From NCBI GenBank assembly GCA_016218715.1, contig JACRDG010000089.1, positions 124,001-188,000 on the forward strand: a DNA stretch of 64,000 nt. The letters are read 5' to 3'. This DNA is from Desulfomonile tiedjei. GTDB taxonomy: Bacteria > Desulfobacterota > Desulfomonilia > Desulfomonilales > Desulfomonilaceae. The position numbers and the translations under genes were made by a program. This document shows, one piece after another, positions 3,914 to 50,944 of the stretch (within the stretch, counting starts at the first letter, position 1; every line of letters begins with the position of its first letter). Under the pieces are notes generated by a model. It did not search any database. It was not told where the DNA came from and worked only from the letters and a program-made list of their open reading frames with translations.

Positions 3914-5419
3914 TCAAACCGCCAAGTCCGCGCCGCTCGATCCGCCTTGTTCGGCGTTAATGTCGCCGGCATCGCGTTTCCGGGGAATGCGCCCCAGGAA
4001 TCTGGGACCCAGTTTCCACAGCAGCAGGCTGTAAATCCCTAGCGTGAGCGTTACCGCCGCATGGAGGGTTATCAAGGGCTCCAGAAGGCAGAAAAACATG
4101 ACTGACCCGCCAGCGAGCGCAAGGAGAAAGACAAAATCCCTCACCCTGAAGTACTTGAACCGGACCTGGCAGTAACCGGTGGTAAGGATCGTCATAAAGA
4201 GCTTGGTCAGCACGATCACCAGGCATCCGCCGAGCAGGCCGAGCGGTTTGACCAACAGCACGTTGAGGGCAAGATTCAGCAGCGTTACGCATGCCGCAAA
4301 CGCCAGCAGCACCCGCTGAGCGCCCGCGACCATCATCACATACGCGAACAGATTCTGCTCGAATGAAAAGAGTATGGTCCAGACCAGATACTGCTGCATC
4401 CAGATCGCGTCCTTAAACTCGGCGGGATAGATCAACCCAATGAGAAGGCGACTCTCCGTATGAAGGAGGAACATGATGGGGAACGCGAGGGCCATGAGCC
4501 ACTGGGCTGTCCGGCGGACAAGCGGCGCTACCTGCGTCCGGTTCTGCCACCAGAGCGCGGAGAGTAACGGAAAGATTACCCAGCCCAGCAATTGCTCGGA
4601 GGCAAGAACCGATACCGGATCGACCAGGTTCCAGGTGGCGCTGTAGACCGCGACGCCATCGACCCCGGTCTGACTTTCGAGGAAGAAGATGTTCGTCTTG
4701 TTGTAGATGATGCCCAGGATGTCGATGAGCGCGAAAACCGTTGCGGCAAGAAAGACCCGCCACGTCGCAACCCAATCCGGCCCATTGTGAGGTGTCGATG
4801 GGTAATTTCGCATGGATTCGGCCATGCCGAAGGCCAGCCGGATCAGCCCTGAGACCAACTTGAACCATGCCACAACGAGCGGGTGCAGCCCCAGAGCCGC
4901 TGTCAGGACGCCATATCCATACGACGCAGCGGACCCGGCGATCTTGATTCTGGCCTCCACCTTTTGGAGCCCCCGCACGCGCATATCAGCGAAGAACGAT
5001 TCGGAGAGCGATTCGAGACCAAATCCCAGCGAAACGAGTATAAGCGTTCCCGCCATCTGGAACGAAAGCTCGCGGTACCAGGCCAGGCCGGTCACGAAGA
5101 GCATGCACACGGTCAGGAGAAACGCCTTGATGATGTTCACCCGCCTGACGATCTGGGCGGTCTCTCCGTCCTTGGCCTCCCCCAACTCGTGAACCATCGG
5201 GTAATAGAGCCCGAATTGCACTACCTTCCAGACGATGGCCCCGGCCGCGAGGGCGTACATCACCTCGCCGTACATCGTGGAATTCACCCACGCAAGATAG
5301 AGGAAGAAGGCGGCGCTTCCCAGACCTTCCACCCCCTGCGCGGACAGGAGGTACGCAAAGCGTCTGATGATTCGCTTGCCGGACGAGGCTTGTGCGGGGG
5401 GCTCGGCGTGGTTGGTCAT
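3914..5419 (-). CDS. Polysaccharide biosynthesis flippase (Wzx/oligosaccharide flippase type)
   Basis: A 501-residue protein made almost entirely of hydrophobic segments, about 12-14 helices, with the arrangement of the oligosaccharide flippase branch of the MOP superfamily. Such proteins move lipid-linked glycans across the inner membrane. No glycosyltransferases are adjacent, so the substrate cannot be guessed from context; asnB at 18.6 kb, often seen in such loci, is too far away to argue a link. The C-terminal tail (after about residue 480) is polar. The ribosome binding site before the ATG is weak. Confidence 0.8.
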   Translation of the reverse strand: MTNHAEPPAQASSGKRIIRRFAYLLSAQGVEGLGSAAFFLYLAWVNSTMYGEVMYALAAGAIVWKVVQFGLYYPMVHELGEAKDGETAQIVRRVNIIKAFLLTVCMLFVTGLAWYRELSFQMAGTLILVSLGFGLESLSESFFADMRVRGLQKVEARIKIAGSAASYGYGVLTAALGLHPLVVAWFKLVSGLIRLAFGMAESMRNYPSTPHNGPDWVATWRVFLAATVFALIDILGIIYNKTNIFFLESQTGVDGVAVYSATWNLVDPVSVLASEQLLGWVIFPLLSALWWQNRTQVAPLVRRTAQWLMALAFPIMFLLHTESRLLIGLIYPAEFKDAIWMQQYLVWTILFSFEQNLFAYVMMVAGAQRVLLAFAACVTLLNLALNVLLVKPLGLLGGCLVIVLTKLFMTILTTGYCQVRFKYFRVRDFVFLLALAGGSVMFFCLLEPLITLHAAVTLTLGIYSLLLWKLGPRFLGRIPRKRDAGDINAEQGGSSGADLAV

Positions 5420-5668
5420 TCGGTTACAGGTTGTGCCGCGGACGGGCCATTCCTTGATCCTTCAGTCGATGCGCCGGGGAATATAGCATCTTTCGTGCGT
5501 CGGTGAAAAGACGGAACGTCTCTTTCCCTCTGAGAAAGCCGTGTGGGCTCGGGAGGATGTCCCGGGTCTCGTGAAGTTTTTCTTGCCTCTGTCCGGTGCC
5601 CGATGGATAGTGTCCGTGGATTAAGGGGAATAGTGTCAGACGGCAATAGCGGAGGAGCGCTGGCAAAC

Positions 5669-7063
5669 ATGCTACCGAAATGTCCGACCGGAATACGTGG
5701 TCTCGATGAATTGACCGGAGGCGGGTTGCCGAAAGAGCGATCCACGCTGGTCTGCGGCGATGCAGGCGCGGGGAAGACGCTGTTCGGCCTCGAGTTCCTG
5801 GTAAACGGGGCTCGGCTGTACGACGAACCCGGGGTCTTCCTTGGTTTCGACGAATCCCAGGAGGAGTTGGCCGCTAATTGCGAATCGCTCGGTTTTCAGC
5901 TTCAGGAGCTCATCGCCAATGGAAAGATCGTTATCCATCACGTAGCAATGGAACGCAACGAGATCGAAGAGACCGGCGGGTACGACCTGGCCGGGCTGTT
6001 TATCAGACTCGGTCATGCCATTGACTCCATCAAGGCCAAGCGGGTGGCGCTCGACACCATCGATGCTCTGATTCCCGGCTTTGAAAACGAATTGATCCTG
6101 CGGGCGGAACTCCGGCGACTGTTTCGATGGTTCAAGGCCAAAGGGGTCACCGCGGTCGTGACCAGCGAAAGCGGAATGGAAACCCTCACCAGATACGGCC
6201 TCCAGGAATACCACGCGGACTGCATCCTCCTCCTCGACCGGCGGTCTACAGGTCCGATGGTGACCCGGCGGCTGCGCGTCGTGAAATATCGGGGGGCCGC
6301 TCACGCTCTGGACGAGCACCCTTTCCTCATTGATGAGACGGGCTTCTTTGTGGTCCCGACTGCGATGAAGGTGCCTGATCCGGAGGTCTCCGGAGAGCGG
6401 GTTTCTACCGGAATCGCGGACCTGGATGCCATGCTGGAAGGGGAGGGATACTTTCGCGGCAGCACCGTCCTGATTTCCGGCGCGTCCGGGACTGGCAAGA
6501 CCGGCTTTGCAGCCCATTTTGCCGACGCTCTCTGTCGAAACGGAGATCGGGTCCTGGTCTTTTCGCTTGCCGAGTCAGAGAGCCAACTCGTTCGTGACAT
6601 GCGGTCCATGGGGATCGACCTCGAACCGTGGGTGAAACAGGGAACTTTACGCTTCTCGGCGTCCCGTGCCGTCGGAGCCTGGTTTGAGCTGCACCTCGCC
6701 ACGTACTATCGCCTGGTCGAGGAATATAGGCCAGCCGCGGTGATCTTCGATCCCATTTCCGGTCTGGCTGCCATGGGCACTTCGGTACACGTGGCAGCGA
6801 TGTTGACGGGGCTCATGGATTTCCTGAAAGCGAATCGGATCACCGCACTCTTCACGGATCTGAGCCCGGGATACCTAAGCGCGGAACCCGCGGCAGCAGC
6901 GCTTACTCCCTTGATAGATACCTGGATTTCGCTCCACTTCCTCGAGAGCGGAGACGAACTCGTTCGCGGCATCCATGTGGTGAAATCGAAAGGTATGGCC
7001 CATTCCAGCGCGATGCGCACCTTCCGGTTCACGAACCAGGGTGTCCAATTCTTTGAAATGTGA
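5669..7063 (+). CDS. KaiC-like double-domain RecA-family ATPase
   Basis: The protein has two RecA-like halves in tandem, as in KaiC. From the ATG at 5669 it is 464 residues; this start begins with the usual LPKCPTGIRGLDELTGGG entry, while the reading frame extends 42 codons further upstream. Walker A motifs are GDAGAGKT (30-37) and GASGTGKT (about 271-278). The KaiC catalytic glutamate pair reads DE in the first half (about 61-62) and AE in the second (about 301-302). The site matching the KaiC phosphorylated Ser-Thr pair, just before an IDT motif near the C-terminus, reads Thr-Pro by my alignment. No kaiA or kaiB is nearby, so a clock role is unlikely; many such proteins in non-cyanobacteria act in signalling. 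The neighbour upstream is divergent. Confidence 0.85.
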   Translation: MLPKCPTGIRGLDELTGGGLPKERSTLVCGDAGAGKTLFGLEFLVNGARLYDEPGVFLGFDESQEELAANCESLGFQLQELIANGKIVIHHVAMERNEIEETGGYDLAGLFIRLGHAIDSIKAKRVALDTIDALIPGFENELILRAELRRLFRWFKAKGVTAVVTSESGMETLTRYGLQEYHADCILLLDRRSTGPMVTRRLRVVKYRGAAHALDEHPFLIDETGFFVVPTAMKVPDPEVSGERVSTGIADLDAMLEGEGYFRGSTVLISGASGTGKTGFAAHFADALCRNGDRVLVFSLAESESQLVRDMRSMGIDLEPWVKQGTLRFSASRAVGAWFELHLATYYRLVEEYRPAAVIFDPISGLAAMGTSVHVAAMLTGLMDFLKANRITALFTDLSPGYLSAEPAAAALTPLIDTWISLHFLESGDELVRGIHVVKSKGMAHSSAMRTFRFTNQGVQFFEM

Positions 7064-7146
7064 TTTCCTGCCTCGCACAACAGCGGCCACAGTTCGTCGG
7101 GGTTCTTTGAGAAATAGTGTCTTTGATGGCAATAGGTTACTCACAG

Positions 7147-7158
7147 TGAGAATTCTCA
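7147..7158. promoter_or_regulatory. Perfect 12-bp palindrome upstream of xerC promoter
   Basis: TGAGAATTCTCA reads the same on both strands and lies in an AT-rich stretch, 25 bp before the -35 box of the xerC-hslVU promoter. It could be an operator for an activator or repressor; no regulator can be assigned. Confidence 0.35.
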
Positions 7159-7183
7159 TTTCTTAATATATTATCCTAACTTA

Positions 7184-7212
7184 TTGCACCAATTATAGAA
7201 AAATGCTATTCT
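7184..7212 (+). promoter_or_regulatory. Sigma70-type promoter for xerC-hslVU
   Basis: TTGCAC and TATTCT are separated by exactly 17 bp, preceded by a strongly AT-rich stretch (about 7155-7205). Transcription would start near 7219, giving a leader of about 45 nt before the TTG start of xerC. Confidence 0.6.
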
Positions 7213-7265
7213 AATTCTGTCAGCGTGTTCGCGATCGACTGCCCCCCGGGAGGAGACACACTCCC

Positions 7266-8207
7266 TTGACCTTTGACGATGCACTCCAGCGTTTCCAGCG
7301 TCACCTGGAGACGGAGAAGATGCGCTCGAAAGAAACGGTGCGAGCCTATCTGGCTGACCTGCGTGATTTTCGGGTCTATCTCGAAGGGACCGGGTCGACC
7401 GCTGAATTGAAGAATGTCGCCAAGCTGGATCAGTTTCACGCGCGCGGGTTCCTGGGGAACCGGTACGGCAAAATCAAGAAAGTGTCCGTGGGGAGGAAAT
7501 TGGCGTCGATCAGGACTTTTTTCCGGTTCCTCGTAAGAGAAAGGGTCCTGAAGACGAATCCAGCTTCAGCCTTGCGGTCTCCCAAGTCCGAGAAACCGTT
7601 GCCCAAAGCCCTCACCGTGGACGAGATCGACCGGTTCTTCTCGCGCACCTCGGAGCGGAGTGCTCGAGACTTCGCGATCTTCGAGTTGCTCTACTCTTCG
7701 GGCCTCCGTGTAGGCGAACTGACGACGCTGCGGGTCCAGGAAGTGGATCTGCAAAACGGATGGCTCCGGGTGGTCGGAAAAGGGAACAAAGAACGGTACG
7801 TGCCGGTGGGATCACGGGCTCTTGAGGCTTTGAAGGAATACCTTCCGCTGCGTGCGGCTATTCGAGCCATGACAGCCGAAACGATCGTAACGGATGCGGT
7901 CTTTCTCAATTCGCGCGGCGGCCCGTTGTCATCCAGGAGCGTACGACGTATACTCAAGTCGTTTCTCGTCACCGCGAATCTGGCAAGAGACGTCTCGCCG
8001 CATGCGTTTCGGCACTCTTTTGCGACGCATCTTCTGCAAGGCGGAGCCGATCTGAGGTCGATTCAAGAGTTGCTCGGCCATGCGAGTCTCTCCACGACTC
8101 AGCGCTACACCCGGGTGGACCTTGGCCGCCTCATGGAGGTCTACGACCGATCCCATCCGAGAAGCGGATTCACGGAAAAGGGAGAGGACCCAGATCGGCA
8201 CAAGTGA
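7266..8207 (+). CDS. xerC: Tyrosine recombinase XerC
   Basis: A 313-residue tyrosine recombinase with an N-terminal SAM-like core-binding domain (about 1-100) and a catalytic domain. All catalytic residues are visible: R148 (SGLRVGEL), K172, H246 and R249 (HAFRH), H272 (LGHAS) and nucleophile Y281. It resolves chromosome dimers at dif sites with XerD. The start is TTG at 7266, chosen because GGGAGGAG lies about 10 bases upstream. The gene is followed by hslV and hslU, the same order as codV-clpQ-clpY of Bacillus and related arrangements in many bacteria, which supports XerC rather than a phage integrase. Confidence 0.92.
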   Translation: MTFDDALQRFQRHLETEKMRSKETVRAYLADLRDFRVYLEGTGSTAELKNVAKLDQFHARGFLGNRYGKIKKVSVGRKLASIRTFFRFLVRERVLKTNPASALRSPKSEKPLPKALTVDEIDRFFSRTSERSARDFAIFELLYSSGLRVGELTTLRVQEVDLQNGWLRVVGKGNKERYVPVGSRALEALKEYLPLRAAIRAMTAETIVTDAVFLNSRGGPLSSRSVRRILKSFLVTANLARDVSPHAFRHSFATHLLQGGADLRSIQELLGHASLSTTQRYTRVDLGRLMEVYDRSHPRSGFTEKGEDPDRHK

Positions 8208-8320
8208 CCAACACCGAGGCAGAGGATCGCTTTGCGCGATGTTTCTCGCATGCCGGCGGCACGAGGGGGTTTGACTGCGGTCCGTCAGGACCGACCGTTC
8301 ACTACTGAGACGATGAGCGC

Positions 8321-8875
8321 ATGAAACAAGAAATCAGATCTACGACGGTCCTTTGCGTCAGGAGAGGCCCCAAGGTCGTCATGGCCGGTGACGGTCAGGT
8401 GTCCCTCGGCGATACGGTGATTAAACACTCCGCCCGGAAGATCCGCCGCCTGGGAAAGGGCGGGAACGTGCTCACCGGGTTTGCGGGATCCACGGCTGAC
8501 GCGCTGACCTTGCTCGACAAGTTCGAGCAGATGCAGGAAAAATATGCCCACAATTTGACCAGGGCCGCGGTGGAGCTGGCCAAGGAATGGCGCACCGACA
8601 GGATGCTGCGAAGATTGGAGGCCCTGCTCATCGTGGCGGACGCGGAAAAGACGCTCCTACTGTCGGGCAATGGAGACGTGGTGGAACCGGACGACGGCAT
8701 CATAGCCATCGGGTCGGGCGGCAACTACGCTCTAGCCGCTGCCAGGGCTCTGTTCCGGCATACGGACATGGACCCCGCCGAGATCGCCCGCGTGGCGATG
8801 GCCATAGCCGCAGAGATTTGTGTCTACACCAACGACCAGATGGTGCTCGAACAAATCGGCGATGAACCGCGTTAA
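8321..8875 (+). CDS. hslV: ATP-dependent protease peptidase subunit HslV
   Basis: A 184-residue proteasome-like peptidase. A seven-residue leader MKQEIRS precedes the Thr-Thr pair; removal of the leader would expose the catalytic N-terminal Thr (TTVLCVRR block). The lysine-containing RKIRRLG, the GFAGSTADA loop and the GSGGNYA block match HslV. It forms a double hexamer capped by HslU and degrades unfolded proteins in the cytoplasm. It sits between xerC and hslU with a gap of 78 bp to the chosen hslU start, so the three genes are probably one operon. Confidence 0.95.
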
Positions 8876-47260: not shown

Positions 47261-47617
47261 TGTAAAACATGCTAAGATAACAGACGAAAGTTGGCCGTTA
47301 GTGCTACGTCTCATCGACACGTCACCGTAAGAAGGTAAGTCTAAGAGATTGCTTCACCAACATAAGAAATCACATTAGCTTCTTGCTCTATCATCTGAGA
47401 ATAAAATCATTAATCAGACAGAAACATCTTGACTTTTGACCCCCTTTGCGTTACCCATGTAGGAGCATCCTGCGAGGCCCCTGTTTGATGGGCCTTCCGC
47501 CCAGCGGGAAAATCCGGTGTGTTCCGGGGAAAGGTTTCTCCCTTTGTTAACCACTCTCGCCAGCCGTTTAATCGAGGGGCCAGCCGCTCCGGTTCAGAGC
47601 CGTTTGGAGGAATGCTT

Positions 47618-48592
47618 ATGCCTGCAAGGGTATCGATGAAAACTCCCTGTGCCTTGGTGACCCTGGCCCTACTTGTACTGGCAGTAGGGGCCGCGATGGC
47701 CTGGGATCAGCCGAATCGTCTCCCGGCCAAGGTGAGATCTTTGGAAGGCGGATTGTCAAATCCCTTTGTCGGTGGGATCGGCGCGATCAGAGGCCGCGGG
47801 GGCATAGAGCGGGGCGATTGGCTCGCGGCTGCAGGTCAGGCTCGCCGCACGATTCTCTGTCCGTCCAGCGACTACGCCATGGCACTCGGTGTCAGGCCGT
47901 TCTTCTCCAATCTCGGCGGCGCGGTCAAGGCGGTTAGCAGGGGCGGCGAGGGGACTTGGCTCAGTCTCCCGGGTCATCTCAGGCTTCCGACGGAAGCGAC
48001 ATCATGGGAGCTCTACGCGCATCTGCGCACGTGGGACAAAGTGATGTGGCGCATCGAGTACCGTCCCTGGAACTGGTCCGGACCCGGACACATCCCAACG
48101 GATGGAGACTTTGCCGGGCTGTTTCTCCAGGCAAATGACGGGATCAACACGGACCTCACCATCACCACTTTCTTGGTCGGTGCGGATTACGATGTCTCGT
48201 TCAACCGCGAGCTGATGTTCGGACCGAACGTTGACCTTCACATAATCAAATGGGCGCAGCGGGTGGCCAAAGACGCCGGCGCGGTCGTGGACTTTTCTCA
48301 GACGATGTTGCAGCCCGCGATCGGGGCACATGTGCGCTATGAGCCTACCAACACCGGGTACTTCTCCTGGTTCAAGCCGTACCTGGAAGGACGCTTCAGC
48401 TGGATGAGTTTTGGCAGTCTCGCACTCTCCACCTGGGACGCGGGCCTCGGCGTGGCGCCCCCGTTGAGCAGGAACATGGACGGCGGGATCAGGGCCGGGT
48501 ACAAGCAGTGGAAATTGGACGGAACTCGGGGGCGTCTCTCTACGGACGTGGATGTTGAAGGATTCTACCTGGATTTCTCCCTGAGGTTCTGA
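47618..48592 (+). CDS. Outer-membrane beta-barrel protein (unknown)
   Basis: From the ATG at 47618, behind GGAGGAATGC, the product is 324 residues. Residues 1-30 form a signal peptide (PCALVTLALLVLAVGAAMA, cut before WDQ). The rest alternates amphipathic strands with turns such as GADYDVSFNRELMFGPNVDLH and ends in Phe (FYLDFSLRF), the C-terminal signature for barrel assembly. No family is recognised. The gene has a clear terminator about 40 bp downstream. Confidence 0.75.
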   Translation: MPARVSMKTPCALVTLALLVLAVGAAMAWDQPNRLPAKVRSLEGGLSNPFVGGIGAIRGRGGIERGDWLAAAGQARRTILCPSSDYAMALGVRPFFSNLGGAVKAVSRGGEGTWLSLPGHLRLPTEATSWELYAHLRTWDKVMWRIEYRPWNWSGPGHIPTDGDFAGLFLQANDGINTDLTITTFLVGADYDVSFNRELMFGPNVDLHIIKWAQRVAKDAGAVVDFSQTMLQPAIGAHVRYEPTNTGYFSWFKPYLEGRFSWMSFGSLALSTWDAGLGVAPPLSRNMDGGIRAGYKQWKLDGTRGRLSTDVDVEGFYLDFSLRF

Positions 48593-48631: not shown

Positions 48632-48665
48632 AAGCCCGCAGGACTATGGTTCTGCGGGCTTTTGT
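48632..48665 (+). terminator. Rho-independent terminator after the beta-barrel gene
   Basis: A ten-base-pair perfect stem, AAGCCCGCAG (48632-48641) with CTGCGGGCTT (48652-48661), ends in a TTTTG stretch. Confidence 0.85.
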
Positions 48666-48711
48666 AATCGTCCACCGGGCTTGCTTGAGGCGCCCACGCG
48701 TCCACTTCCCC

Positions 48712-48740
48712 TTGACAGTTAACTTCCGCGATTTTAGTAT
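48712..48740 (+). promoter_or_regulatory. Promoter for the S24-type regulator gene
   Basis: TTGACA (48712-48717) and TAGTAT (48735-48740) are separated by exactly 17 bp. Transcription should begin near 48747, about 86 nt before the start codon. Confidence 0.7.
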
Positions 48741-48765
48741 GGGATTGCACGCATCTGCCCGCAAT

Positions 48766-48781
48766 GGACCGACGGCGGTCC
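48766..48781. promoter_or_regulatory. Candidate operator, inverted repeat in the regulator's leader
   Basis: GGACCG (48766-48771) and CGGTCC (48776-48781) are inverted repeats with a 4-bp spacer, located about 20 bp after the expected transcription start of the S24-type regulator gene. This suggests autoregulation. Confidence 0.4.
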
Positions 48782-48832
48782 GCCGATACCAGAGTTTGGA
48801 CAGGATGATAACCTGTTGGGTTACGGAACCGT

Positions 48833-49879
48833 ATGACGACGTTTGGAGAATACGCACGACAGAGAGTCCGGAGACTCGGCAAGAGCCAGAAGGCACTGGC
48901 ACTGGAACTTGAGGTGTCTCCGGCCTACGTCTCTCAGGTTTTCAGCGGGAAGAAGAATCCTCCCGATCTGGGGCGGCCGCGCAGTCGCACACTTCTGAAG
49001 AAGTGGGCGGAATTTCTCGAGGCCCCGGAGAGTGTCCTGTTGGAAAAGGTCCGGTTCGATCTTCACCACGTGCCCCCGCGTCCCGGCGCGAAATTCGGCA
49101 AGATGCGGGAACTTCTGTGTGCGAGGCTGCACGCTCAAGCCGCGGGCCTGGTGGAGGAGATACGATCCATGGCGCTTCATCCGGCGGAGAGCCTGGCGAT
49201 TCAACGCCTGGTACAGGTATATCTGGTCATGCAGGAGGACCTGCATCAGCCCCGCGGAGATGGGCCGCGTCGCTTCAGGGACCTCTCCTGTCGGGCCAGG
49301 GCTGACCGTGAGTTTGTCGAAGGGGAATTGTTGCACTTCTTTGACGAGCAGCCTTTCGCGTGGTCGTGGGACCCTGACAACGGGCAGATCCGGCTCGCCT
49401 GGAAATCGGGTGACCTACAACATGCCATGGAGACGGTGAGGTCCATACTCGAGGATTCACGGATCGCTCCGCTCGGGTGCACGGTTCCGGTCGTGGGACA
49501 CGTGAGCGCCGGCGAAGGGTTCGCGTTTACCGACGGCGGATTTGCCGTGGGGGAGGGCTTCGAGCAGGTCGAGATGCCTCCGGGGATAGAACCTGCACTG
49601 GCTCGAACCCTGTACTGTGTCAGGGTGAGGGGAGATAGTCTGCGCGATTTCCTATGTGACGGCGCGCTCCTCTTCATCAAACCCGAGTCGTGGGAGGAGA
49701 TCAAGGACGGCGACCTGGTGATCTTCAAGGATTCGAAGGACCGAAGGGCGTTTGTCAAGAAGGTGGAATTTGCAGGCGAGAACCTGATCCTGAAACCGAT
49801 GAATTCGCTCTACAAGAACATGGTGCTCCGTCGGGCGGAGTTGGTCCTTCTCGAGCGGGTCACCGCGATCGTCCTGTAG
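48833..49879 (+). CDS. XRE-type regulator with S24/LexA-like self-cleaving domain
   Basis: A 348-residue protein with an XRE helix-turn-helix at the N-terminus (about 6-62, QKALALELEVSPAYVSQVFSGKK), a long middle region, and a C-terminal S24 peptidase domain (about 215-340). A candidate cleavage site is the Ala-Gly in VGHVSAGEGF. The catalytic Ser is in VRGDSLRDFLCDG and the Lys in FVKKVEF. Such regulators cleave themselves when activated, usually by RecA after DNA damage, as cI/LexA do. A Gly-Asp-Ser-Leu replaces the more common Gly-Asp-Ser-Met. The 3' neighbour is a lytic transglycosylase. Confidence 0.88.
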   Translation: MTTFGEYARQRVRRLGKSQKALALELEVSPAYVSQVFSGKKNPPDLGRPRSRTLLKKWAEFLEAPESVLLEKVRFDLHHVPPRPGAKFGKMRELLCARLHAQAAGLVEEIRSMALHPAESLAIQRLVQVYLVMQEDLHQPRGDGPRRFRDLSCRARADREFVEGELLHFFDEQPFAWSWDPDNGQIRLAWKSGDLQHAMETVRSILEDSRIAPLGCTVPVVGHVSAGEGFAFTDGGFAVGEGFEQVEMPPGIEPALARTLYCVRVRGDSLRDFLCDGALLFIKPESWEEIKDGDLVIFKDSKDRRAFVKKVEFAGENLILKPMNSLYKNMVLRRAELVLLERVTAIVL

Positions 49880-49897
49880 GTGGCGGGATTGCGAGTC

Positions 49898-50944
49898 ATG
49901 AGCAGAGAACTGAAATCGGCCATTCTCACGGCAGCCCTTCTCTGGGGAGTTGGGGCCGGCACGTGCCTTGCCCTGCCGCCGAGCCTTCCCCCGCATCTGG
50001 AAACCATGGGAAACGGCTTCCGGTACGGCTTCCCGCCTCAGGTGGAAAAGCAAGGACTGGTCTTCGCGGGGAGCGTGGTGCCGATCCAACGCCCGGATGT
50101 GCGTAGCCGTGTGCTCAAAGAGATCAACTACCTGTTGCAGGACCGGCGATCGCGTATACTGGCGTGGCTGAACGGAGCAGACGCGCTCACTGGCGTCATG
50201 GCCCCTATCCTCCGGGAATACGATATCCCCTCGGATTTCATTTACCTGGCGGCCATCGAGAGCAGTTACAATAGCAGGGCTCTCTCCAGCGCAGGCGCAT
50301 ACGGCTACTGGCAGTTCATCCGGCCGACAGCTGCGAATCCCCCCAAGGGGTGCGACAAATACAACTGGAAAATGATCATGTGCGACTGGAAGGACGAACG
50401 AGCCGATCTCGTGCGTTCGACACATGGCGCCGCTCGGTACCTGGCGTGGCTGAACCGGATCAAGAAAGTGAGCTTGAACGGGCGGCCGAACCGTGATGGC
50501 TTCAACGACTGGTTACTCACCTGCGCTTCGTACAACGCGGGCCCGAGCAGGGTGGTGGAGCGATTGAACGGTTTCGGGGCCGAGTCGTATTGGGATGTTC
50601 CGCTTCCCGTCGAAACGGAACGGTACGTTCCGCGATGGATCGCTACGGCCCTCATCGGACGGTATCGCAATTTCTACGGAGTCCAGATACCGCGCACGCG
50701 CAGCGTGGCCTTTGAAACGGTCGACAAGATCCGTCTGAAAAAAGATCTCTCCTTCGTCGCGATGGCTCGACTCCTGGACACCAATCCGCGTGTCGTATGG
50801 TCCCTCAACACACAGGTGGCCCCGGAGAAGGGCGTGTTCCCTGCACGCTCCGGAACTCGATCGATCGAGCACAGGATCAACGTGCCCCGGGGCAGTCGCA
50901 ACAAGTTCATAGCTCAGTTGGCAGCCAACGGATACACGAAGTAA
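49898..50944 (+). CDS. Lytic transglycosylase (SLT/MltD-like)
   Basis: A 348-residue protein from the ATG at 49898 (a GTG at 49880 directly after the regulator's stop is an alternative). A signal peptide is visible (LKSAILTAALLWGVGAGTCLA). The SLT domain (about 110-260) has the catalytic Glu in FIYLAAIESSYNSRALSSAGAYGYWQF and the CASYNAGPSRV block. It lacks the LysM repeats of MltD; the C-terminus holds a weaker unit (FETVDKIRLKKDLSFVAMARLLDTNPRVVWSLN). It cleaves peptidoglycan in the periplasm. It follows the S24-type regulator, so both may be in one transcript. Confidence 0.87.
   Translation: MSRELKSAILTAALLWGVGAGTCLALPPSLPPHLETMGNGFRYGFPPQVEKQGLVFAGSVVPIQRPDVRSRVLKEINYLLQDRRSRILAWLNGADALTGVMAPILREYDIPSDFIYLAAIESSYNSRALSSAGAYGYWQFIRPTAANPPKGCDKYNWKMIMCDWKDERADLVRSTHGAARYLAWLNRIKKVSLNGRPNRDGFNDWLLTCASYNAGPSRVVERLNGFGAESYWDVPLPVETERYVPRWIATALIGRYRNFYGVQIPRTRSVAFETVDKIRLKKDLSFVAMARLLDTNPRVVWSLNTQVAPEKGVFPARSGTRSIEHRINVPRGSRNKFIAQLAANGYTK

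Follow-up and report, generated by a model that had tools for sequence, protein, structure and literature searches.

The analysis of a 64,000-nucleotide stretch of DNA (the window), which is part of a 5.55 Mb Desulfomonilaceae assembly (G000), pointed to a resident chromosomal switch of this family of sulfate reducers, in which a self-cleaving repressor would control its own wall-enzyme operon and RecA would be the most likely trigger; taken as a whole, we regard this reading as having an even chance of being correct. The two genes concerned lie on the forward strand of the window and encode a regulator of 348 aa (48833–49879) and a lytic transglycosylase of 354 aa (49880–50944). Judged from their sequences, both open reading frames are real genes. 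The genes, their catalytic residues, their synteny and the conserved promoter region can be read directly from the sequence.

A preliminary description had named the first gene product a self-cleaving S24-type regulator, and the domain analysis agreed with this. The N-terminal DNA-binding domain of the regulator matched HTH_3 with 27.2 bits (Pfam cut-off 23), and the C-terminal part matched Peptidase_S24 (PF00717) with 49.4 bits (cut-off 23.3), with a middle domain lying between them. The Ala-Gly cleavage site (A226-G227) and the Ser-Lys dyad (S269 and K309) aligned with their equivalents in three proteins of the same genome, which were labelled LexA-type from a reading of their sequences. These three LexA-type S24 proteins are encoded in addition to the window's regulator, on C11, C85 and C93 (loci L071, L073 and L072, respectively). 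A226, G227 and S269 were identical in all 10 family members, and K309 was identical in all nine that reached that position. The mean pairwise identity of the regulators was highest in the S24 domain (0.70), followed by the HTH (0.62) and the middle domain (0.39), and it amounted to 0.83 in residues 219–243 around the cleavage site. The model of the whole regulator was poor in the S24 half, with a block pLDDT of 36–57. The best alignments of this low-confidence half were to chains of lambda CI and LexA in complex with RecA (Z of 12.3 and 11.7), and Foldseek also placed it with such chains. A sequence search of solved structures with the regulator matched one chain, over the HTH only. We also considered the regulator as a LexA orthologue and rejected this assignment, as its TIGR00498 score was 35.6 bits against a cut-off of 110.95. 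Collectively, the domains and residues suggested that the regulator very probably belongs to the self-cleaving type and is LexA/CI-like.

A RecA gene was present in the genome. By analogy with LexA-like proteins, it is plausible that RecA triggers the cleavage, and we weigh this assumption about equally in either direction. The middle domain (residues 80–214; 49070–49474, forward strand) bears on this point. When it was modelled alone (AlphaFold2, 11 sequences), a pLDDT of 85.4 and a pTM of 0.81 were obtained. The comparison with solved structures gave no clear match, with a best Foldseek E of 0.75 and a best VIA Z of 3.9, and weak rows of the MarR/PadR type were seen among the Foldseek matches. 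The last part of the domain consists of helices, a hairpin and a helix, which look winged-helix-like by eye, a claim that the scores do not support. The absent structural match does not show that the fold is new; it leaves room for a trigger that is independent of RecA, as in IrvR. We therefore weighed an alternative in which the operon and the self-cleaving repressor are the same and the middle domain senses another signal, for example envelope stress, leading to self-cleavage or release. A large extra domain that models confidently and finds no clear structural counterpart would suit such a sensor, as would the wall enzyme encoded by the adjoining gene, and the available part of PMC7101444 offers IrvR as a precedent that works without RecA. 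However, the same source describes RecA dependence as general among LexA-like proteins, and conservation within the regulator is lowest in the middle domain, which is unusual for a ligand pocket. We consider this alternative rather unlikely, roughly a one-in-four matter. A one-target wall homeostat, in which a family-specific regulator senses an envelope or metabolic signal through its middle domain and RecA-free self-cleavage releases the transglycosylase of its own operon, appears improbable. The reading that we prefer remains that of a self-cleaving repressor most likely triggered by RecA.

The second gene product matched the transglycosylase SLT domain PF01464 with 51.8 bits (cut-off 21.3). 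An AIES motif, whose Glu we take to be the catalytic Glu, was found in all 16 transglycosylase orthologues, and lytic activity is predicted from these features. The MltD model NF008050 matched residues 111–310 with an E of 1.8e-21 and 76 bits, below its equivalog cut-off of 508. The enzyme thus shares the SLT domain and the model match with MltD, whereas its 354 aa are fewer than the 457 positions of the model. The protein begins with a signal-peptide-like stretch, from either GTG 49880 or ATG 49898, in which no lipobox was seen by eye. The enzyme is probably secreted and MltD-like. In addition, three further transglycosylase matches were found elsewhere in the genome.

Upstream of the regulator lies a gene for an outer-membrane beta-barrel-like protein (47519–48592, forward strand), whose true start may be an internal ATG. 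TIGR04219 matched this protein weakly, with 21 bits (cut-off 105), and Pfam gave no match. It is a neighbour kept across the family and was found upstream in all 10 loci with the regulator and in all seven that lack it. A terminator-like hairpin, AGCCCGCAGGACTATGGTTCTGCGGGCT, with the tail TTTGTAATC (48633–48669, forward strand), follows the outer-membrane gene, and a hairpin with a T-rich tail was present in all 10 spacers between this gene and the regulator. The hairpins were found by a custom criterion with one mismatch allowed and no shuffle control, and a general terminator scan did not list the hairpin of the window. The preliminary description had claimed a strong promoter before the regulator. 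A motif scan located the promoter-like TTGACA-17-TAGTAT at 48712–48740 on the forward strand. The bare match was not above chance, as two such matches were counted in 5.5 kb against 1.0 (sd 1.1) in shuffles, but TTGACA stood at the matching place in the spacers of 8 of 10 relatives, with TTGACT in G008 and TTCATA in G006. No clear Shine-Dalgarno sequence was seen by eye before the regulator start codon in G000, G001, G003 and G006.

The order of outer-membrane gene, terminator-like hairpin, promoter, regulator and transglycosylase was the same in all nine family genomes in which the contig continued, with the transglycosylase directly downstream of the regulator on the same strand in each. The close junction noted earlier was confirmed in the window, where the transglycosylase ORF begins directly after the regulator stop. 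The likely enzyme start lay at most 40 nt from the regulator stop in seven of the nine loci. The gap can be longer in G006, where the enzyme may start at 13 or 94 nt, and in G003, whose first possible start is at 106 nt; both gaps were checked by eye only. A separate terminator and promoter between the two genes were looked for, and the scan of the junction in the window found neither a sigma-70-type promoter nor a terminator. The conserved synteny, together with the lack of a promoter- or terminator-like site between the genes in the window, indicated that the regulator and the transglycosylase are highly likely to share one operon.

The preliminary description had also proposed an inverted repeat behind the promoter as the operator. 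This repeat, GGACCG-ACGG-CGGTCC, exists at 48766–48781 and starts 26 nt 3' of the -10 hexamer, but it is probably not an operator. GGACCG/CGGTCC was present in 1 of 10 upstream regions, and such repeats (perfect, at least 6 bp, spacer of at most 10) were common, with at least one in 134 of the 266 tiles of 240 bp in the window; the candidate was rejected on these grounds. When the whole spacer was shuffled, 40% of the shuffles contained at least one such repeat and 5.2% contained at least three, the number observed. For the leader only (48741–48832), the shares were 16.4% with at least one and 3.5% with at least two, again the number observed, indicating that the region is mildly rich in repeats.

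Two other sites were better operator candidates than this repeat, with neither occurring in all relatives. The first, TTGACAGTTAA (48712–48722, forward strand), is an imperfect palindrome over the -35 box. It was exact in 5 of 10 upstream regions; G002, G006 and G008 agreed with it in 9 of its 11 letters, and it was not found in G005 and G007. Six of its letters coincide with the -35 box, which leaves GTTAA as the informative part. Its exact form occurred once in the window's genome, and an 18-letter form with up to three mismatches retrieved the window copy only, compared with three hits for the control. The second candidate, GATAACC-TGTTG-GGTTA (48807–48823), lies 26 nt before the start codon, just upstream of the expected translation start of the regulator (region 48806–48832). 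GATAACC-N5-GGTTA was exact in G000, G001 and G006 and agreed in 10 of 12 letters in G010, in all four at 26–28 nt before the start codon; it was not found in the other six of the 10 upstream regions, where 9 of 12 letters or fewer agreed. The exact form was again single in the genome. With up to one mismatch, 15 places (the exact one included) were found compared with six for the reversed control, palindromes being counted on both strands. Both sites were conserved although the leader between them was not. The four genomes with the second site fall on one side of a branch of the outer-membrane-protein tree with modest support (81/90), so shared descent contributes to its conservation. As neither site has a second exact copy in the genome, the regulator, if these sites are operators, may mainly control its own operon. 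Overall, the regulator probably represses its own operon.

We also compared the spacer with LexA boxes. No complete match was found to three candidate boxes from the upstream regions of the lexA-type genes in the same genome, the best matches being 9/15, 9/15 and 7/13 letters. Likewise, four generic LexA boxes had no complete match in the spacer; the best were 7/8 for GAAC-N4-GTTC, inside the terminator-like hairpin, and 7/9, 5/8 and 4/6 for the others. As the LexA boxes of Desulfomonilaceae are not established, this negative result is weak. Upstream of L073 on C85, two similar TTCGTA-led stretches were observed, which may be boxes of that LexA-type gene.

A search with the regulator gave a match in 15 of 60 genomes, the window's own included. 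A homologue with 51–60% identity was present in 10 of 18 genomes of the same family (own included), of which nine were complete and one (G009) was cut by the contig end; in the remaining five matching genomes, the S24 part only was matched. Matches were obtained in 41 of 395 genomes of the phylum, which were drawn evenly from a larger group. Beyond the family, f7 (G046 and G117) alone matched residues 158–345, and the others matched mainly the S24 or the HTH end. The distant relative in G046 (L062, 4829–6049) shares the order of HTH and S24 domains, and its neighbour is a PAS/HAMP histidine kinase (6191–8866); none of the four surrounding ORFs listed, each of 130 aa or more, was recognisable as a transglycosylase. 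A search of genome contigs gave no matches with the single protein as the query and seven loci with the alignment.

In genus g5, all seven genomes carried the outer-membrane gene followed by the enzyme, and the regulator was absent. In one of them, G017 (L055, about 4455–6714), the outer-membrane gene was found twice in tandem. G012 was left out of these counts, as its contig with a transglycosylase-like fragment holds neither neighbour. The g5 genomes formed one group beside the regulator-bearing G007 in both trees, with support of 100/98 for the outer-membrane protein and 93/86 for the enzyme. Where a row of the former tree had internal stops, it was cut after the last of them, and the second of the two G017 copies was used; in the latter tree, the two outgroup rows were very long. 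One change explains the pattern of regulator presence and absence. With a root outside g5, loss of the regulator in this genus would be the more likely direction, both trees being without a safe root. The seven genomes that keep the enzyme without the regulator indicated that control by the regulator is dispensable.

These genomes also bear on an alternative in which the targets of the regulator are limited to its own gene or to distant ones, and the enzyme, a housekeeping gene, has its own promoter and happens to stand behind it. Such independence would explain how g5 keeps the enzyme alone and why the gap can be longer in G003 and G006, and with three further transglycosylase matches in the genome the window enzyme may be an ordinary one. 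However, the adjacency held in nine of nine loci with regulators of 51–60% identity, the junction in the window had no sigma-70-type promoter or terminator, and neither operator candidate had a further exact copy in the genome. We judge this explanation to be distinctly unlikely and retain the shared, self-controlled operon.

The pair had alternatively been described as a possible domesticated phage relic, that is, a prophage remnant with a CI-like repressor and an endolysin. At the domain level, PHROG matches agree with this idea: the regulator matched ten families (best phrog_4, repressor, E 1.6e-18) and the enzyme three families of lysis or tail proteins (best phrog_669, endolysin, E 3.4e-7). 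However, no relatives were found in phage records, plasmid records or viral contigs, and the 11 window proteins scanned between 42872 and 56626 were of the housekeeping type, none being phage-type. According to their domains, from which the gene names were read, the neighbours include yidC, jag, mnmE, the outer-membrane-like protein, an XRE-cupin regulator, radA, a radical SAM protein, a pseudouridine synthase and an alcohol dehydrogenase. Moreover, the enzyme occupies the same place in the seven genomes without the regulator; whatever the direction of the change, an enzyme that stands without the regulator speaks against a fixed phage lysis cassette. The phage relic was thus abandoned as very improbable, and assignment of the regulator to the prophage CI repressors was rejected, as there were no phage-type genes among the 11 proteins scanned around it, no relatives in the phage, plasmid and viral records and only domain-level PHROG matches.

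In the resident switch that we favour, one promoter behind the terminator-like hairpin of the outer-membrane gene would drive both the repressor and the secreted transglycosylase. The repressor would most likely bind over the -35 box and/or at the site before the start codon and hold its own operon low. The self-cut between A226 and G227, performed by the S269/K309 dyad, would follow a stress signal, for which RecA filaments formed upon DNA damage are the most likely candidate. The cut repressor would lose its grip on the DNA, and the operon and the wall enzyme would rise until new repressor accumulates. The amount of the enzyme may thus depend on stress, for instance on damage to DNA. If this is true, wall turnover in anaerobic Desulfomonilaceae would be coupled to genome damage, or to another stress, by a minimal single-operon circuit that is resident and free of phage genes, and the genus without the regulator would provide a natural comparison.

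To our knowledge, repressors that cleave themselves and are linked to wall or lysis enzymes have been described mainly from phages, pyocin and alp systems. Literature searches for Desulfomonile with LexA, for Desulfomonile tiedjei with transglycosylase, and for four of the five terms S24, XRE, peptidoglycan hydrolase, autoproteolysis and RecA found nothing. The search for lytic transglycosylase with SOS response and LexA yielded no such operon among the matches listed, as judged by title or the start of the abstract.

Compared with LexA (TIGR00498), the regulator has the S24 domain, the Ala-Gly site and the Ser-Lys dyad in common, whereas it carries a Cro/CI-type HTH and an extra middle domain, scores below the cut-off, and is encoded in a genome with three LexA-type proteins elsewhere. 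In the available part of PMC7101444, IrvR of Streptococcus mutans is a LexA-like protein that does not belong to the SOS regulon and acts mainly on its neighbouring gene, irvA, and it is an exception to the RecA dependence of LexA-like proteins. The proposed switch resembles IrvR, as far as described there, in having a LexA-like repressor with an adjacent target gene; IrvR differs in that it is RecA-independent and acts on irvA, while the proposed target in the window is a transglycosylase. This precedent is the main reason to keep a trigger other than RecA in view. A further likeness, in function, is to AlpR of P. aeruginosa, which, according to the available parts of PMC7969949 and PMC9998450, self-cleaves after DNA damage and, via AlpA, raises lysis genes and the amidase AmpDh3. 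In both cases, a repressor that cleaves itself after DNA damage, as is proposed for the window, would release a peptidoglycan enzyme. In contrast to the antiterminator AlpA, which in those parts acts on other operons, the window has its wall enzyme, a lytic transglycosylase, directly 3' of the repressor gene. The analogy with AlpR suggested that the likeliest reading of the locus is a damage-responsive, self-cleaving repressor with a wall enzyme in its own operon.
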